A DNA stretch of 60,287 nt from NCBI GenBank assembly GCA_003278065.1, contig QCHE01000007.1, forward strand, positions 1 to 60,287, in the 5' to 3' direction. Made by a program: the position numbers and the translations under genes. Shown here piece by piece: positions 21,219-46,153 of the stretch (position 1 is its first letter; each line of letters opens with the position of its first letter). The notes beneath the pieces were generated by a model. It was not told the DNA's origin, did no database searches, and saw nothing but the letters and a program-made list of their open reading frames with translations. This stretch comes from Pelagibacteraceae bacterium AG-390-O04 (GTDB lineage Bacteria > Pseudomonadota > Alphaproteobacteria > Pelagibacterales > Pelagibacteraceae).

Positions 21219-23040
21219 AGTTGGAAAAGAAGCAATAAAAAAAGAGCTCCCTTTAATTCCTAAACTACCTGGTGTTTACCGAATGCTTAACGATAAAGGT
21301 GATATCCTTTATGTTGGAAAAGCAAAGAATTTAACTAATAGACTTAAAAGTTATGTAGCAGAAAAAAATCATATTATCAGGACAGAAAGAATGCTATCTC
21401 AAACAAAAAAACTTGAAATTACTACAACATCAAATGAAAGCGAAGCTTTGCTTCTTGAAGCAAATTTAATTAAAAAATATAAACCAAAATTTAATATTCT
21501 GTTAAGAGATGATAAATCTTTTCCATTTATATTTATTGGCAATAAAGACAAATGGCCACAAATTAAAAGACATAGAGGAAAAAAAATAAAAGAAGGTTTT
21601 TATTTTGGCCCCTTTGCATCAGCTGGATCTGCTAATTGGACTATAAAAATGATACAAAAAATTTTTCACTTGAGAGTTTGTGATGATACTGTTTTTAAAA
21701 ATAGACAACGTCCTTGTATATTATATCAGATTAAAAGATGTTCTGGACCATGTGTTGGATATATAAAAGAGGATGAGTACAAAAAAAATGTTGAGGATGC
21801 AATTGAATTTGTTTCCGGCAAATCACGAAAGATACAAAAAAGTCTCTCAGACCAAATGGAAAAAGCTAGCGATGATTTAGATTTTGAAAAAGCAGTAATT
21901 TTAAGAGATAGAATAAAATCTTTAAACATTATTCAATCATCTCAAAGAATTAATGAAGCAAATTTAATTGAGGCTGATGTAATCGCTGGTTATAAAGAGT
22001 CTGGTAAAACTTGCATTCAAGTTTTTTTTTATCGTTCAAAACAAAATTGGGGTAATCAAGCTTTTTTTCCAAAGCATGATCCCGATGAAAAACTAGGTGA
22101 TGTATTAAATTCTTTTGTCTCTCAATTTTATGAGAACAAAAGTGTTCCTTCATCAATAATATTATCTGAAGAAATTAAAGAAAAGATTTTGATTGAAAAA
22201 ACTCTCTCTCAAAAAGAAGAAAAACAAATAAATATTTCTATCGCAAAAAAAGGATCGAAATTAAAAGTAATTAATCAAGCAATTAAAAATGCAAAAGATA
22301 GCCTAAATAGAAAACTTTACGAAAGTCAGAATAATAAAGAACTATTCGATGCGGTAACAAGTAAATTCAATCTGGAAACAAATATTAATTTAATCGAAGT
22401 TTATGACAATAGTCACATTCAAGGATCAAATAGTGTTGGAGCTTTAATTGCTTACGGCGATGATGGTTTTATAAAAAAACGATATAGAAAATTTAATATT
22501 AAGATACAAAAGAACGAACAAGATGATTATGGAATGATGCGAGAAGTTCTAAATCGAAGGTTTAAACGAGCCATACAAGAGAAAGACAATTATCTCACTT
22601 TTCCAGACTTAGTTCTAATTGATGGTGGAAAGGGCCAATACTCTGTTGCAAGAGAAACTCTTAATGAACTAGGTCTTCATGATTTACCAATAGTTGCTAT
22701 AGCCAAAGGAAAGCAAAGAAACAGTGGTAATGAAACCTTTTTCCATAATGGTAAAGAATTTAAATTTACAAAAAATGACCCTACTCTTTTCTTTCTGCAG
22801 AGAATCAGGGATGAATCACACCGATTTGCAATAAGTGCTCATAGGGCTAAAAGAAAAAAAGGGATTAGTAGCTCTTTACTTGATCAAATTGAAGGTATTG
22901 GCTCTATTCGAAAAAGAGCTTTATTAAATCATTTTGGTTCAGCAAGAGCGGTTGAGTCTGCAAGTCTTGACGAAATTAAATCTGTTGAAGGTGTTGAAGC
23001 AAAAGTAGCAAAAAAGATATATAACTTCTTTCACGAATAA
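21205..23040 (+). CDS. uvrC: Excinuclease ABC subunit C
   Basis: A 611-residue UvrC. The GIY-YIG nuclease domain ([20 protein letters not shown]) cuts 3' of the lesion. A UVR motif ([16 protein letters not shown]) binds UvrB. The C-terminal RNase-H-like nuclease includes [11 protein letters not shown] and [10 protein letters not shown] for the 5' cut, and tandem helix-hairpin-helix motifs ([18 protein letters not shown]) end the protein. I chose the ATG at 21205 inside the folB 3' end, since the upstream alternative adds folB-frame residues unlike UvrC. uvrB is 2.3 kb upstream in the same orientation. Confidence 0.97.
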
Positions 23041-39869: not shown

Positions 39870-41555
39870 TTAAGAATTTTTAAGTCCTTTTATTATTTTA
39901 ATGTTTATTTTTTTTAACATCTCCTCGTCAGTGTCATCCATTTTAAGTACACTTCCCCAGAAATATCTTGCTTGAATTTTGCGATTTAATTTCCATAGAA
40001 TATCTCCATAATGATCATTAACTATTGGATCTTCTGGCATTAATTCTACTGCTCTTTTTAAAAATTTTTCAGCTTTTAAAAAATCATCAATTAAGTAATA
40101 AGCCCAACCTATTGAATCAATTATATAAGGATCATTACTTTTTTTTTCATATGCTGTTTCAAGCATTTTTATTGCTTCATTAATTTTGTAGTCTCTCTCA
40201 AGCCAAGAATAAGCAAGATAATTCAAAACATATGCATCATCTGGTTTAATTTCTAATGAGCTTATCAAATCTTTGTCTGCTTTTTTGTACTCTCCAATTC
40301 GTTCATAGCTTCCTCCTCTTCTGTACAGAATATCTGATTTTATTTCTGAATTGTTATCCAGCGTTTCTAAAATCATAGAGTAATATTTAATTGCATCGTT
40401 AAATTTTTTAGAATTTTTATAAAAATTTGCGATATCAAATAATATTTTCTTATTTGGTTTGCTTATTTTTTTGAATTCTGCAGTAATATAATTGAGCGAC
40501 TCAGTTTTATTTCTTTGCTTTTCAATAATCTTGGCTTCTTTTTTAATTCGATACCAATAATAGAACTCATTCTCTTTTTTAAAATTTTTTAAAGTTTTTT
40601 TAGCCTTAGTATATTCCTTATTTAGATATTGATTCTCAGCTACTAAAGAAAGATTGAATATAAACTTTGGATTTAAAAAATTTGAAATACTCAAATAGAA
40701 ATTTGATTTTTCAAAATTATCTTGAGCGGAATAAAGATTTGAGATCAAAAAAAAGAATTCACTAATAACATCATTGTGATTTTTACATGAAAAAAACTCA
40801 TTAAATTTTTTTATATCTTTTTTTTGTATCCAGCTTTTTCCTTGAGATAATAATAAAGTTGAATTGATATATTCAATATCATTTATTAGATCTTTCAAAT
40901 CATCATCCCTATTTTTTTCAATTAGATAACCTAAATAAAAATAAATATATCTGGTGTAATCTGATGTTGGGTCATTAATTAATTTTGAGAAATAAGCATC
41001 AGTTTTTTGATCATCTAAATAGCATCTTTGAAATGTTTCTGAAATAACTGACAATTTTCCAAATTGTTTTTTATTTTTAGAAATTTTTTTTTCTTTAAAA
41101 ACAAAAATATATTGATTTAAACTCTCCAAAATTACAGAATTAAATCCATCCTGGTCTACAAATTTCATTGTGTTAGATAGGTAGATTTTGGCTTGATTAA
41201 AATCATTTTTTTTTAAACTATCTAAAGTCAATAATAAATAGGCTTCAAAAAAATTTGTATTATCTTTTCCAATATTTTGTTTAATCAAATTAATTACTTG
41301 TGGAATTTTTTTTTCTAAGACTAATGATAAGATATAACTTTTCAAAAAGGGATCATGCTTATCAATTAAAATTTTAGATGAGTTAAAAAAATCTAGAGCT
41401 ACTGAATTATTTTTATTGTCAAATGATACAATGCCAGAAAAATAATTAGAAAAATTTTTACTATTAAAATCATTCAAATTATTACTTTTAGAAAACAATG
41501 CGGTCTGATAGGATAAATTTATGATCAATATAATTATTAATTTTTTTAAAAACAT
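39870..41555 (-). CDS. Secreted or periplasmic tetratricopeptide-repeat protein
   Basis: A 561-residue protein with a signal peptide (about residues 1-23). The second half has clear TPR units: ILYRRGGSYERIGEYKKAD, AYVLNYLAYSWLERD, YIIDSIGWAYYLIDDFLKAE and IVNDHYGDILWKLNR. The first half is helical with weaker repeats. It resembles the TPR proteins that sit next to ispE in many alphaproteobacteria. A scaffold role at the envelope is likely; partner unknown. It diverges from the UDG gene over 12 bp. Confidence 0.8.
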   Translation of the reverse strand: MFLKKLIIILIINLSYQTALFSKSNNLNDFNSKNFSNYFSGIVSFDNKNNSVALDFFNSSKILIDKHDPFLKSYILSLVLEKKIPQVINLIKQNIGKDNTNFFEAYLLLTLDSLKKNDFNQAKIYLSNTMKFVDQDGFNSVILESLNQYIFVFKEKKISKNKKQFGKLSVISETFQRCYLDDQKTDAYFSKLINDPTSDYTRYIYFYLGYLIEKNRDDDLKDLINDIEYINSTLLLSQGKSWIQKKDIKKFNEFFSCKNHNDVISEFFFLISNLYSAQDNFEKSNFYLSISNFLNPKFIFNLSLVAENQYLNKEYTKAKKTLKNFKKENEFYYWYRIKKEAKIIEKQRNKTESLNYITAEFKKISKPNKKILFDIANFYKNSKKFNDAIKYYSMILETLDNNSEIKSDILYRRGGSYERIGEYKKADKDLISSLEIKPDDAYVLNYLAYSWLERDYKINEAIKMLETAYEKKSNDPYIIDSIGWAYYLIDDFLKAEKFLKRAVELMPEDPIVNDHYGDILWKLNRKIQARYFWGSVLKMDDTDEEMLKKINIKIIKGLKNS

Positions 41556-41567
41556 AGTTAATAGTTT

Positions 41568-42287
41568 ATGACTAAAAGGACTTTAAATCAAAATGCTAAA
41601 TATGTTCAAAAATTAATAGATACAATAGAGCCTGACTTTTCCTTTGGCATAAAGCCACTTAATAGATTCAAAATTATCAAAAATAATCAAAATGATATTG
41701 CTCAAAGTAAAGCTTTAAAATTATTTGAGCTAAAAAAAGAAATCAATTCAATTGAAAATTGTAATTTAAAAAACGCGTCTAAAAATATTATTTTGGGTGA
41801 TGGTCCTACAAATAGCGATATCATGATAATAGGTGAGTCTCCGGGAACAGATGAAAATAATTCTGGATTATCATTTCAGGGTGAAGCTGGTGCTTTGTTA
41901 AATAAAATGCTTCTTGCAATAAATATCAATCGAGAAAAAATTTATTTATCATACTCAATCAATTTTATGGTTCCAGAAGACAGAAAGCCAACATCCGCTG
42001 AAATCAAACGATATTCTTCATTTTTAAAAAAACATATATCAATTATTGATCCAAAAATAATAATTCTAATGGGTAGTATTGCTATGCAATCAATAACGGG
42101 AATAAATCAGAGAATCTCTGATGAAAGAGGAAAATGGAAAGAAATTATTTTGAATAATAAAACTTATCCCATTATGATTACATTCAGTCCTTCATATCTA
42201 ATCAGATTACCCGATAATAAAAAATATTCGTGGGAGGATTTAAAAAAAATAAGACAGAAAATAAAAGATTTTAATATAAAAATTTAA
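41568..42287 (+). CDS. Uracil-DNA glycosylase family-4-like protein lacking usual Fe-S ligands
   Basis: A 239-residue protein with the UDG superfamily fold. Motif A is IMIIGESPGTDEN, and FQGEAGALLNKML and DRKPTSAEIKRY follow, as in family 4. The usual four Cys that bind a [4Fe-4S] cluster are not there: only one Cys (Cys65) occurs in the whole protein, and Phe and Tyr stand where KCRPPGNR and CRPFL normally carry Cys. The motif normally reading HPSxLLR is FSPSYLIR, so the His is a Ser. Activity on uracil is therefore uncertain. It overlaps rnhB by 1 bp. Confidence 0.82.
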   Translation: MTKRTLNQNAKYVQKLIDTIEPDFSFGIKPLNRFKIIKNNQNDIAQSKALKLFELKKEINSIENCNLKNASKNIILGDGPTNSDIMIIGESPGTDENNSGLSFQGEAGALLNKMLLAININREKIYLSYSINFMVPEDRKPTSAEIKRYSSFLKKHISIIDPKIIILMGSIAMQSITGINQRISDERGKWKEIILNNKTYPIMITFSPSYLIRLPDNKKYSWEDLKKIRQKIKDFNIKI

Positions 42288-42850
42288 TGAAAATTATTGC
42301 AGGAGTTGATGAAGTTGGTAGGGGTAGTTTAATTGGACCAGTGTATGCAGCTGCTGTAATTTTAGATAAATCTATAAAAAAAGAATTATTAAAAGACTCA
42401 AAAACTTTAACAAAAAAAGAAAGAGAAATTTTAGCAAAATATATAAAAAAAAATTCAGTATGGGCTACGGGTAAAGCTTCTGTTAAAGAAATTGAAAATA
42501 TCAATATTCATTACGCGAGCTTACTAGCTATGAAAAGGGCTATAAAAAAACTAAAAATAAAACCAACTCTTGTTTTAATTGATGGTAATAAATTGCTTGA
42601 AATAAAAAATTACAATCAAAAATGTATAATAAAAGGAGATCAAAAAATACCTTCCATCTCTGCTGCATCAATCATAGCTAAAGTAACACGTGATAAAATT
42701 ATAACTAATTTGGGAAAAAAATTTAAAGGCTATTTTTGGGAAAAAAACAGCGGTTACGGTACTAAAGATCATCTTAAAGCTATAAGAAAATTAGGTACAA
42801 CGGTGCATCATAGAAAAACTTTCTCACCAATAAATAAAATAATAAAATGA
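42287..42850 (+). CDS. rnhB: Ribonuclease HII
   Basis: A 187-residue RNase HII. The catalytic DE pair is in GVDEVGRGSLIGPVYAAAV. TLVLIDGNK gives the third acidic residue, and KVTRDKIITNLGKKFKGYFWEKNSGYGTKDHLKAI holds the fourth and the substrate-binding region. It removes single ribonucleotides and RNA primers. The stop codon directly precedes a parS-like repeat, and ccrM begins 118 bp on. Confidence 0.96.
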   Translation: MKIIAGVDEVGRGSLIGPVYAAAVILDKSIKKELLKDSKTLTKKEREILAKYIKKNSVWATGKASVKEIENINIHYASLLAMKRAIKKLKIKPTLVLIDGNKLLEIKNYNQKCIIKGDQKIPSISAASIIAKVTRDKIITNLGKKFKGYFWEKNSGYGTKDHLKAIRKLGTTVHHRKTFSPINKIIK

Positions 42851-42865
42851 GTTTCACGTGGAAAC
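42851..42865. repeat. parS-like inverted repeat downstream of rnhB
   Basis: GTTTCACGTGGAAAC starts on the first base after the rnhB stop codon. It has GTTTC/GAAAC arms around ACGTG and closely resembles the chromosomal ParB site (GTTTCACGTGAAAC-type, with GTTTCACGTGGAACA variants in alphaproteobacteria), but is one base longer than the 14-bp palindrome. It may be a degenerate parS, a hairpin for rnhB, or chance. A near-match to a DnaA box, TTCTACACA, lies at 42891-42899. Confidence 0.4.
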
Positions 42866-42927
42866 ACAAGATGTTGTTGTTTTAAAAATTTTCTACACAA
42901 ATCAATTTTAAACATTTCAATCATAGG

Positions 42928-42956
42928 TTGACCCAAGAATCTTTTTAGAGTCTAAT
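42928..42956 (+). promoter_or_regulatory. ccrM promoter containing two GANTC sites
   Basis: TTGACC (42928-42933) and TCTAAT (42951-42956) are spaced by exactly 17 bp, each five of six to consensus. A start near 42963 leaves a leader of about 6 nt before the ATG at 42969, so the mRNA may be almost leaderless. GAATC (42937-42941) lies in the spacer and GAGTC (42948-42952) runs into the -10. Both are substrates of the encoded methyltransferase, which suggests autoregulation by methylation. Confidence 0.65.
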
Positions 42957-42968
42957 TAATTTTTACAA

Positions 42969-44039
42969 ATGTCTTTTGACTTAGAAAATAAATTGATAAA
43001 TGGCGATAGCTTAGAAGAATTAAAAAAAATTCCAGATGAGTCCTTTGATTTAATTTTTGCAGATCCTCCTTACAACTTGCAACTAAAAAATGGACTAACT
43101 AGACCTGATAGATCTAAGGTAAATGCAGTAAATGATAAATGGGATAAATTTGAAAATTTCAAAAAATATGATGATTTTACTTATTCATGGTTGAACGAAT
43201 GTAAAAGAATTTTAAAAAAAGATGGTGCAATTTGGGTAATAGGTAGTTACCACAATATTTTTAGAGTTGGCACTGCAATTCAAAACTTAGGCTTTTGGAT
43301 TTTAAATGATGTTATTTGGAATAAAAAAAATCCAATGCCAAACTTTAGAGGAACTCGATTTACTAATGCTCATGAAACTTTAATTTGGGCCTCTAAATCA
43401 GAAAAATCAAAATACACTTTTAATTATCAATCTTTAAAATGCTTAAATGATGATCTTCAAATGAGATCCAATTGGGATTTACCAATATGTAATGGATCTG
43501 AAAGACTTAAAAAAAATGGCAAAAAAGTTCATTCAACTCAAAAACCTGAGGCTCTACTTCATAGAATTTTACTAGCAACTTCAAATAAAAATGATTTGAT
43601 TTTGGATCCTTTTTTAGGCTCTGGAACAACAGCAACAGTTGCTAAGAAATTAAGTAGAAATTATTACGGTATAGAGAAGGAAAAAGCTTATTTTAAAGCT
43701 GCAGAGCGAAGATTAAAAAATACAAAACCAATTGAGGACGATTACTTGGATACTTTAAAAAATAATAGGTCTAAACCTAGAATACCTTTTGGTTCATTGG
43801 TTGAATTAGGAATAATAAAACCAGGTACAACTATTTTTGATAATAAAAAGAAAATCAGTGCAAAAATTATGGCTGATGGAAGCATAAAACATGCACAAAC
43901 AGAGGGTTCAATTCATAAAGTGGCGGCTACAATTTTGGGTGCTGAAAGCTGCAATGGATGGACTTATTGGCACTATAATTTAAATGGCTCACCGGTTCCA
44001 ATTGATCATTTAAGACAAAGATTAATTAATAATAGTTAA
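42969..44039 (+). CDS. ccrM: CcrM-type DNA adenine-N6 methyltransferase (GANTC)
   Basis: A 356-residue beta-class methyltransferase. The catalytic motif DPPYNLQL is near the N-terminus, and the SAM motif DPFLGSGTTATVAKK comes late. The C-terminal 80 residues (IPFGSLVELGIIKPG..., VAATILGAESCNGWTYWHY) form the RAMA-type domain that CcrM uses to recognise GANTC. In Caulobacter CcrM sets methylation timing in the cell cycle. The gene has its own predicted promoter with two GANTC sites and overlaps the convergent monooxygenase by a TTAA. Confidence 0.95.
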   Translation: MSFDLENKLINGDSLEELKKIPDESFDLIFADPPYNLQLKNGLTRPDRSKVNAVNDKWDKFENFKKYDDFTYSWLNECKRILKKDGAIWVIGSYHNIFRVGTAIQNLGFWILNDVIWNKKNPMPNFRGTRFTNAHETLIWASKSEKSKYTFNYQSLKCLNDDLQMRSNWDLPICNGSERLKKNGKKVHSTQKPEALLHRILLATSNKNDLILDPFLGSGTTATVAKKLSRNYYGIEKEKAYFKAAERRLKNTKPIEDDYLDTLKNNRSKPRIPFGSLVELGIIKPGTTIFDNKKKISAKIMADGSIKHAQTEGSIHKVAATILGAESCNGWTYWHYNLNGSPVPIDHLRQRLINNS

Positions 44040-45173
44040 TTTCTATAAATTTTTCCTAAGTAAGACTCTAAAAATTTTTTGTTTTTTACTAATCTTTTTA
44101 AAAAAATGTTTCTAACAAATGTGACTAAAGGATTAGATAAGTGAAAAGTAAACTGATTAAATTTTGATCTAATATTTACCATTTTTGTTTTTTTTACTCT
44201 ATTCTTAAAAAAATTATTTTCTGTATTATTATCAATACTTTTAAATAACTCATAAGCACCTTCTATTGACTGTGATGCGCCTTGAGCAAATGAAGGAGGA
44301 AATGCAAAAAAAAGCATCACCTATTAAATGAACATTATTACTTTGTAATTTATGGAAATTGTCGCTTACAAATACTGGAAATATTTTTAAATCTTTTAAA
44401 AAATCTTTATTTTCTATAGGAATTTTTTGTAATACATTTTTAATAAACGTATTATCACTGAATAATGCGTAATTTTTTTGATCTTCTGTTGAGAGTTTGT
44501 ATTTCATTATGGCTATAAAATTTAAATCTCCACTTGGACTTACTGGATAAATAACATGGTGAAAATCTGAACCTAAAAATAAGGAAATATTTTTACTATC
44601 AATATTTTCAGGGGATTTATTCAAGATACCTCTAATTGCTAATGTATTATTATATATAGGTTTAACTTCATCGTTTGAAATTAGACTTTTACATTTAGAA
44701 AAAACCCCATCAGAAATAATTAAACAATCACATTCTTTTAATTCATCATTTTCAAAATAAAGTTTAATCTGTTTGTCTTGATAGTCTATTTTGGAAATAT
44801 TGTGGTCAGTTTTTATCAAACCTTCCAAATCTGTTTTTAAGAAATTAATTAATGATGATCTTTTTAGAGTAGTATACTTGCAGTTTTCTGAATTAAATTC
44901 TGCGATATCCAACTCACAAATTTTATCTAAATTCTTATTGGAATAAAAATCTATTTTTTTAGGAGAAAATTTTTCTTTATCTTGTAATTTTTCAAATCCT
45001 ATTTCATTTAAAAATTTGACGCTATTTACTGATAGTTGAACACCATAACCTTCCTCTAGTGCAATCGATATATTTTTTTCGTAGATTGTGATTTGATAAT
45101 TAGGATTTCTTTTGAATAAATTTGCAATAAATAACCCAGATATTCCAGCTCCTATGATAGCTACTCTTTTCAC
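44036..45173 (-). pseudogene. FAD-dependent monooxygenase with an apparent one-base frameshift
   Basis: From a GTG at 45173, about 290 residues match the UbiH/PHBH group: VAIIGAGISGLFIANLF, YGVQLSVNSVKFL and NVHLIGDAFF. The frame then reads CISSF and ends in a stop. In another frame the expected continuation FAFPPSFAQGASQSIEGAYEL runs to the natural C-terminus. The shift falls in a run of eight A on the plus strand (44306-44313). Seven would restore 378 residues. The GD and the Gln-Gly region show a hydroxylase fold, not a specific substrate. An aromatic or quinone-pathway role is possible. Error, mutation or slippage cannot be told apart here. Confidence 0.85.
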
Positions 45174-46153
45174 TAATTTCTCTCCAAATATTTTACAACT
45201 TTTTTTGTAAATGAAGGGAGCATATAATTGTCTAATTTTTTTTCATTTATCCAAAGAGGTGAGTTAAGTTTTCCACTTTTTTTTAAATATTGAATTTTTA
45301 TGTTCATATTCATATTAGACATTTTAAAGTTTAGATTTTCATTAAAATTTTTTGGTTTAGATAACTCCTCCATAGGAAATATAGTTAAATTTTTTAAGAA
45401 ATTAAATTTAGTATTCTTAATTAACAAATAACTTTGATCTTTTTTGTAAACTTTTAAAACAAAATACTTATCTATTTTTTTCTTAATATTTTTGGTTATC
45501 TCAAAATCTTTCTTTTTAAATGACATACACTTTTTTGATATAGGGCATTGATTGCATAAAGGATTTATTGGTTTGCAAATTAATGCTCCTAATTCCATTA
45601 ATGCTTGAGCATAATCACTGGGTCTTGATGATGATCCAAATATAGATTTTTTTTTAATAATGTTTTCTTTTTGGATTTCATTTTCTTTTCTTAAATAGAG
45701 ATATCTTTTGAGAACTCTTTCTATATTTCCATCTAATGGTATGTATGGTTTATTAAAAGCAATCGCTAGTATAGCACTTGCCGTATAATTTCCTATACCA
45801 GGCAAAGTTTTTAAATCTTCAAAATTATCTGGTAATTTTCCATTAAAATTTTTAATAATTACTTGTGCAGTTTTTTTAAGATTTCTTGCTCTTGAATAAT
45901 AACCGAGACCTTCCCAGAGTTTCAAAAGTTTTTTATTTTGAACTTTTGCAAGGATTTTAAAATTTGGAATGTTTTTAATAAATCTATTAAAATAAGGAAT
46001 CACAGTTGCAACCTGTGTCTGTTGCAGCATAAATTCACTTACTAAAGTGTAATACTGTTTTTTTTGTAAAGAAACATTTTTTCGCCATGGTAATGGTCTT
46101 TTATTTAAATCATACCAATTAAGAATTTTTTTTGTTAATATCAATTCTTTCAT
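45173..46153 (-). CDS. mutY: A/G-specific adenine DNA glycosylase
   Basis: A 326-residue MutY. The N-terminus WYDLNKRPLPWRKN, catalytic Glu in SEFMLQQTQVATVIPYF, the helix-hairpin-helix LPGIGNYTASAILA and catalytic Asp in PLDGNIERVLKR are present. The C-x6-C-x2-C-x5-C [4Fe-4S] loop is intact (CKPINPLCNQCPISKKC). A short C-terminal domain resembles the 8-oxoG-reading NUDIX part. It removes A opposite 8-oxoG. I chose the ATG at 46153; its start codon abuts that of the divergent dciA as CATATG. Confidence 0.95.
   Translation of the reverse strand: MKELILTKKILNWYDLNKRPLPWRKNVSLQKKQYYTLVSEFMLQQTQVATVIPYFNRFIKNIPNFKILAKVQNKKLLKLWEGLGYYSRARNLKKTAQVIIKNFNGKLPDNFEDLKTLPGIGNYTASAILAIAFNKPYIPLDGNIERVLKRYLYLRKENEIQKENIIKKKSIFGSSSRPSDYAQALMELGALICKPINPLCNQCPISKKCMSFKKKDFEITKNIKKKIDKYFVLKVYKKDQSYLLIKNTKFNFLKNLTIFPMEELSKPKNFNENLNFKMSNMNMNIKIQYLKKSGKLNSPLWINEKKLDNYMLPSFTKKVVKYLERN

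Follow-up and report, generated by a model that had tools for sequence, protein, structure and literature searches.

Methylation of GANTC is a main cell-cycle mark of Alphaproteobacteria. In the SAR11 bacterium Pelagibacteraceae bacterium AG-390-O04, the gene encoding the GANTC methylase CcrM is preceded by a promoter that itself contains two GANTC sites. This raises the question whether the promoter responds to the mark that its own gene product sets, and what would read that mark. We analyzed a stretch of 60,287 nucleotides from this organism (hereafter the window) together with ccrM loci of the SAR11 order and of other Alphaproteobacteria.

Structure of the ccrM promoter

The following features were located around the ccrM start; the promoter elements were read directly from the sequence.

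42287-42850, + strand: upstream neighbor rnhB, encoding ribonuclease HII (NF000595, 235.8 bits at a cut-off of 167; PF01351)
42917-42931, + strand: imperfect inverted repeat TCAA-N7-TTGA over the -35 element, a possible regulator site
42928-42933, + strand: -35 element TTGACC
42937-42941, + strand: GANTC site 1, GAATC, within the spacer
42946, + strand: conserved T toward the end of the spacer (about -17, five bases before the -10 element); no known element accounts for it
42948-42952, + strand: GANTC site 2, GAGTC, whose last two bases are -12 and -11 of the -10 element
42951-42956, + strand: -10 element TCTAAT, with C at -11
42963-42968, + strand: predicted leader of about 6 nt, placed from the position of the -10 element
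42969-44039, + strand: ccrM, 356 codons, ATG at 42969 (PF01555 N6_N4_Mtase and PF18755 RAMA over cut-off)

According to a preliminary description of this locus, TTGACC-N17-TCTAAT lies ahead of ccrM, its spacer holds GAATC, and GAGTC extends into the -10 element; letters and coordinates all proved correct. The hexamers are separated by a spacer of 17 nt, and the starts of GAATC and GAGTC lie 11 bp apart. Site 1 is situated wholly within the spacer, and site 2 covers the last three spacer bases plus the first two of the -10 element. The ccrM leader would be about 6 nt long, as deduced from hexamer position alone. The same description had called this the best sigma-70 promoter in the window, which is wrong: it scores 10 of 12 against the sigma-70 consensus, with a -10 element lacking A at -11, and belongs to a set of 68 matches scoring 10/12 or better (both strands, spacers of 16-18), two of which reach 11. 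The promoter was absent from the output of a standard promoter scan of positions 41500-45500, because the scan accepts only sequences with A as the second base of the -10 element, and that base is C here.

The protein encoded downstream carries a methylase domain (PF01555, 234.3 bits) followed by a RAMA domain (PF18755, 67.1 bits), both above cut-off. With the NCBIfam model for CcrM of the Caulobacter type (NF050803), 574.8 bits were obtained over residues 6-351 of 356, i.e. below the cut-off of 830. Judged by its sequence, the gene product is a CcrM homologue that is not certified as an NF050803 equivalog. GANTC is reported to be methylated in Pelagibacter, less so around the origin while cells are growing; in Pelagibacter NP1, 5 of 3482 GANTC motifs are described as incompletely methylated (PMC9516812).

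GANTC was depleted in the window (97 sites found versus 163.8 expected from shuffles). Two pairs of neighboring sites had starts no more than 12 bp apart, i.e. the pair in the ccrM promoter and a pair at 22802/22813 inside a reading frame of 621 codons. The combined pattern TTGAC-N2..5-GANTC-N3..11-GANTC occurred once in the window compared with 0.05 expected, and at least once in 4 of 100 shuffles. The ccrM pair exceeds chance.

Ten genomes of the genus were searched for further copies of the promoter core. The exact string TTGAC-N15-GAGTCTAAT was present only at ccrM in nine of them; in the tenth (G012), the copy at ccrM has one mismatch, as do two other places. The looser pattern TTGAC-N2..5-GANTC-N3..7-GANTC matched at ccrM in all ten genomes and had its sole match there in eight, and the reversed control of this pattern gave one match among the ten. 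A wider set of Pelagibacter genes sharing the TTGAC-N15-GAGTCTAAT core was considered and rejected, as matches with one or two mismatches were about as frequent as those of a reversed-pattern control.

Conservation across the SAR11 order

Within the genus, where many genomes are incomplete, 76 of 101 gave a CcrM protein match, as did 107 of 118 genomes of the family sample and 184 of 197 of the order sample; a few of these matches are weak ones to other methylases. Five genus genomes without a ccrM match (G039, G291, G320, G325, and G332) are 91-95% complete, pointing to either assembly gaps or real loss. The 223 loci of the order became 222 after removal of L001, a gcrA locus, and 187 distinct promoters after 35 had been dropped whose 105-nt promoter was identical to another.

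TTGAC was found upstream of the ccrM start in all 222 loci. Counting offsets from TTGAC, GANTC occurred at offset 8, 9, or 10 (site 1) in 158 of the 187 promoters and at offset 19, 20, or 25 (site 2) in 162. Both sites were present in 141 promoters, and at least one GANTC within offsets 6-26 in 179. The most common pairs of offsets were (9,20) with 90 promoters and (8,20) with 39. Most members of the genus and order keep both sites, whose conservation among relatives the preliminary description had proposed to check. The outcome that it had named as speaking against feedback, i.e. hexamers retained and GANTC lost, was seen in part of the family, in eight of the 187 promoters (genus g9, six; g12, two), which lack any GANTC and retain TTGAC and most of the -10 element.

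Site 1 shifts its register by 1 bp between lineages (offset 8 or 9) and varies in N (G 9, C 25, T 6, and A 6 at offset 8; A 93 and T 13 at offset 9), while GA and TC hold. Of the 147 promoters having GAGTC at offset 20, 129 contain site 1, which is gained or lost 7 times on the ccrM tree. On that tree, individual spacer columns belonging to neither site change 8-37 times, apart from an invariant T at offset 18 (0 changes); this T, at 42946 of the window, is found in 186 of the 187 promoters. All 147 promoters with site 2 at offset 20 have G as its N, so that methylation does not account for the whole conservation of this site. The -10 columns at offsets 23, 26, and 28 are T, A, and T in 180, 180, and 186 of the 187 promoters. 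Offset 24 (-11) is C in 155, T in 25, and A in seven, the last all belonging to the other family of the order. C or T at -11 should weaken promoter melting. At or beside the -10 element, the ccrM tree requires 1 step for T23, 1 for A26, 0 for T28, 2 for G22, and 6 for C24; the GANTC-specific bases of site 2 require 12 (G20) and 6 (A21). Because of the freedom of N and these change counts, site 1 looks as if it had been selected as a methylation site, and site 2 is best described as a composite of -10 element and methylation site.

Concerning the inverted repeat over the -35 element, 133 of 187 promoters have its TCAA half (offsets -11 to -8); the TTGA half belongs to the anchor. A 19-nt spacer with a TAATTA-like -10 element was also considered. 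It fits some genera, with a last base (offset 30) that is unconserved (0.22 bits), and was dropped because of the nearly constant T, A, and T of the 17-nt frame given above.

The ccrM promoter in other Alphaproteobacteria

A CcrM match, in some cases weak, was found in 120 of 144 genomes sampled across the class. Upstream stretches were taken for 100 of these, of which 99 were usable (L353, with 68 bases only, was dropped). TTGAC with GANTC 19-20 nt further on was present upstream of ccrM in 46 of the 99 genomes (42 at 19 and four at 20); the initial count had been 47, from which L335 was dropped since its match lies at the coding start. The 42 occurrences at 19 nt compare with approximately 0.95 expected from the GANTC density of the stretches themselves, and in 200 shuffles the arrangement was found in a mean of 0.25 and at most two of the 99. 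An arrangement special to a streamlined ocean bacterium, as had been suggested, is thus not what we observe. A second GANTC at 7-10 accompanies the arrangement in 38 of the 46 genomes. The variable base of site 1 in class genomes is C in 10, T in five, G in 12, and A in seven; that of site 2 in spacing-19 promoters is C in 31 and A in 11.

All 42 promoters with spacing 19 have A at -11 and T at -7, neither of which was required by the search, and the three bases in between vary. With A and T being -11 and -7 behind a 17-nt spacer, it follows that GANTC supplies the C at -12. The seven distinct promoters of the other family of the SAR11 order share the spacing of 19, as well as A and T at -11 and -7, respectively. 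In Pelagibacteraceae with GAGTC at offset 20, the site lies one base later than the class spacing of 19. The arrangement at 19/20 was not found in the remaining 53 of the 99 genomes; on inspection by eye, the spacer of several of them nevertheless contains a GANTC. A relation between promoter type and CtrA-like boxes in the class sample (3 of 46 with the arrangement versus 9 of 53 without) was too weak to use.

In five of 36 genomes searched, all outside SAR11 (L415, 1501-1866; L419, 1501-1864; and L416, L436, and L437, minus strand), the two-GANTC pattern was also noted immediately before a gene for septum formation that belongs to the DivIC/FtsB family (PF04977). By eye, this gene is followed by an apparent pyruvate dehydrogenase E1 alpha gene.

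CtrA in SAR11

In the eight SAR11 genomes searched for CtrA (NF045991), none reached the cut-off of 350, the best score being 148 bits, whereas six of eight other alphaproteobacteria were above it; NF045991 is a model of the Rhodobacter type, and a diverged CtrA could score below its cut-off. According to a 2010 survey, Pelagibacter likewise has no ctrA orthologue (PMC2877005). The statement in the preliminary description that this bacterium has few cell-cycle regulators fits this absence over the family cut-off. Control by CtrA through the TCAA-N7-TTGA repeat was rejected, since none of the eight SAR11 genomes gave a CtrA above cut-off.

A possible methylation feedback and its alternatives

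We give about an even chance to a ccrM core promoter that senses its own methylation and through which CcrM feeds back on its own gene, on when hemimethylated and off when remethylated. The footprint of RNA polymerase would include two CcrM target sites, of which one is in the spacer and the other fused to the -10 element; their methylation by CcrM would alter promoter activity and close a feedback loop. Most likely, the promoter would fire once the replication fork leaves it hemimethylated; newly made CcrM would then remethylate it and shut ccrM down. The result would be one self-limited pulse of methyltransferase per round of replication, without CtrA, and the methylation could be read by the polymerase directly, or by GcrA where present.

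The sequence does not decide between this sign and the opposite one under GcrA. On when hemimethylated is favored because there is a precedent for the same gene and because it would make a stable homeostat: according to a modelling paper, Caulobacter ccrM is transcribed only from the hemimethylated chromosome (PMC2217572), and a review describes its promoter as having two GANTC sites (PMC10073500). Against the favored sign, Caulobacter ftsZ and mipZ are reported to be activated by methylation (PMC3708114). Counting against feedback as such are the eight of 187 promoters without any GANTC and the 53 of 99 class genomes without the 19/20 arrangement. In addition, the site 2 bases shared with the -10 element change no more often on the tree than the GANTC-specific G20 and A21.

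A serious rival, although we regard it as unlikely, is positive autoregulation dependent on GcrA, which would read m6A in the spacer and the -10 element and help sigma-70 to open a weak -10 element; methylation would then turn ccrM on, and the loop would maintain itself. GcrA is encoded in the genome of the window (PF07750, 134.3 bits) and was found in 37 of 39 genomes of the SAR11 order, and -11 is C or T in 180 of the 187 promoters. GcrA has been described as binding sigma domain 2 and m6A DNA and as stimulating open complexes at m6A promoters (PMC7403470), and a GANTC between the -35 and -10 elements, as present in the window, is reported to go with activation at 40-60 min of the Caulobacter cycle (PMC4287350). 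However, GcrA matches are missing in 10 of the 46 class genomes with the arrangement and in 8 of the 53 without it (Fisher p = 0.44), so that no association between arrangement and GcrA is seen across genomes, and G216 and G262, two genomes of the SAR11 order without a GcrA match, still carry both GANTC sites. These counts are subject to the sensitivity of a profile search, which could miss diverged copies; in G353, one of the 46, the only GcrA match is below cut-off. Furthermore, the extended GcrA motif YGAKTCK (PMC7987155) is unmatched by the window sites AGAATCT and AGAGTCT and fits site 2 in 11 of the 147 promoters having this site at offset 20. With 10 of 46 arrangement genomes lacking a GcrA match, GcrA as an obligatory reader is weakened, and the co-occurrence data tell against it unless diverged copies escaped the search.

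Less probable still is a promoter without methylation feedback, whose unusual -10 element and spacer would be conserved for the polymerase or an unknown regulator, with GANTC as a by-product. Such a promoter would accommodate the locked G of site 2 (147 of 147), -10 bases that are more constant than G20 and A21, the common TCAA-N7-TTGA repeat over the -35 element (133 of 187), and the fact that g9 and part of g12 manage without GANTC. It is harder to reconcile with site 1, where GANTC persists with each of the four bases as N and despite shifts in register, with the recurrence of two GANTC sites with other N in 38 class genomes, and with the gene concerned being the GANTC methylase itself. Finally, GANTC is a five-base motif with one free position, and such short motifs might happen to fall in a promoter; given its depletion in the window (97 versus 163.8), the recurrence of the pair in 141 of 187 SAR11-order promoters, and the arrangement at 46 of 99 other ccrM genes versus at most two in 200 shuffles, mere coincidence has next to no probability.

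Returning to the promoter read as methylation-sensing, its design has been kept in SAR11 and in numerous distantly related bacteria, which suggests an ancient self-timing loop coupled to DNA replication. A broader reading is tentative and, in our view, falls short of an even chance. The GANTC-fused ccrM promoter may represent the ancestral alphaproteobacterial control, a CtrA-independent timer using its own -10 element as sensor (on after replication, off after remethylation). CtrA would then be a later layer in Caulobacter-like groups, and the loop would survive in SAR11 without that layer, with the site shifted by 1 bp in Pelagibacteraceae.

Comparison with known systems

Like the window promoter, the ccrM promoter of Caulobacter crescentus is described in the review cited above as having two GANTC sites ahead of the same gene (PMC10073500), and under the favored reading the likeness would extend to expression tied to hemimethylation after replication, as in the modelling paper (PMC2217572). 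The two differ in that the Caulobacter promoter is activated by CtrA, which was over cut-off in none of the eight SAR11 genomes searched, and in that one GANTC is fused to the -10 element in SAR11; the latter comparison sets the Caulobacter promoter beside ours by description, not by exact positions. For Caulobacter, methylation control and a pair of GANTC sites at ccrM were known already. What the present analysis adds is that a GANTC is fused with the -10 element, that this fusion is widely conserved, and that it occurs in a setting without CtrA.

The sigma-70 promoters of Caulobacter that depend on GcrA and m6A (mipZ, podJ, and others) are also reported to have GANTC near the core promoter (PMC3667746, PMC4287350), and the GcrA gene is present in most SAR11-order genomes, as noted above. 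Unlike these promoters, the one studied here drives the methylase itself, does not match YGAKTCK in the window, and shows no association with GcrA in the class sample. The Agrobacterium repABC PE promoter is a further alphaproteobacterial case, in which a GANTC (motif M3) is reported to overlap the predicted -10 element (PMC11514494); it serves replication and plasmid maintenance instead of ccrM, and the comparison concerns the overlap with the -10 element.

A precedent for the favored mode of action is found outside this group. The IS10 transposase promoter has a Dam site in its -10 element, is silent when fully methylated, and comes on after replication. The favored ccrM reading would work in the same way, with the differences that IS10 involves Dam and GATC instead of CcrM and GANTC and that there is no feedback on the methylase.

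A literature search, which did not extend to the original Caulobacter promoter studies or to the bulk of the subscription literature, returned no account of a GANTC fused to the ccrM -10 element in SAR11 or the class. The literature searched likewise contained no description of the timing of ccrM in bacteria lacking CtrA, such as SAR11. The recurrent ccrM core TTGAC-N14-GANTC-A-NNN-T, which Pelagibacteraceae carry in a variant differing by 1 bp, is a short element that singles out the bases for mutation. It may also offer a simple replication-coupled clock requiring no more than the methylase, the polymerase, and perhaps GcrA.

Additional observations

The Pfam model for GcrA scored over its cut-off in the control archaeon Sulfolobus acidocaldarius, which was unexpected. 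Just past the rnhB stop, a near-palindrome, GTTTCACGTGGAAAC, is located at 42851-42865 of the window. It resembles half of a ParB site; a ParB site at this position was rejected, since the full 16-bp palindrome was not matched within three mismatches. Among the 187 distinct promoters of the SAR11 order, TTTCACGTRRAAAC boxes occur upstream of ccrM in 51 and CACGTGAAACAC in six.
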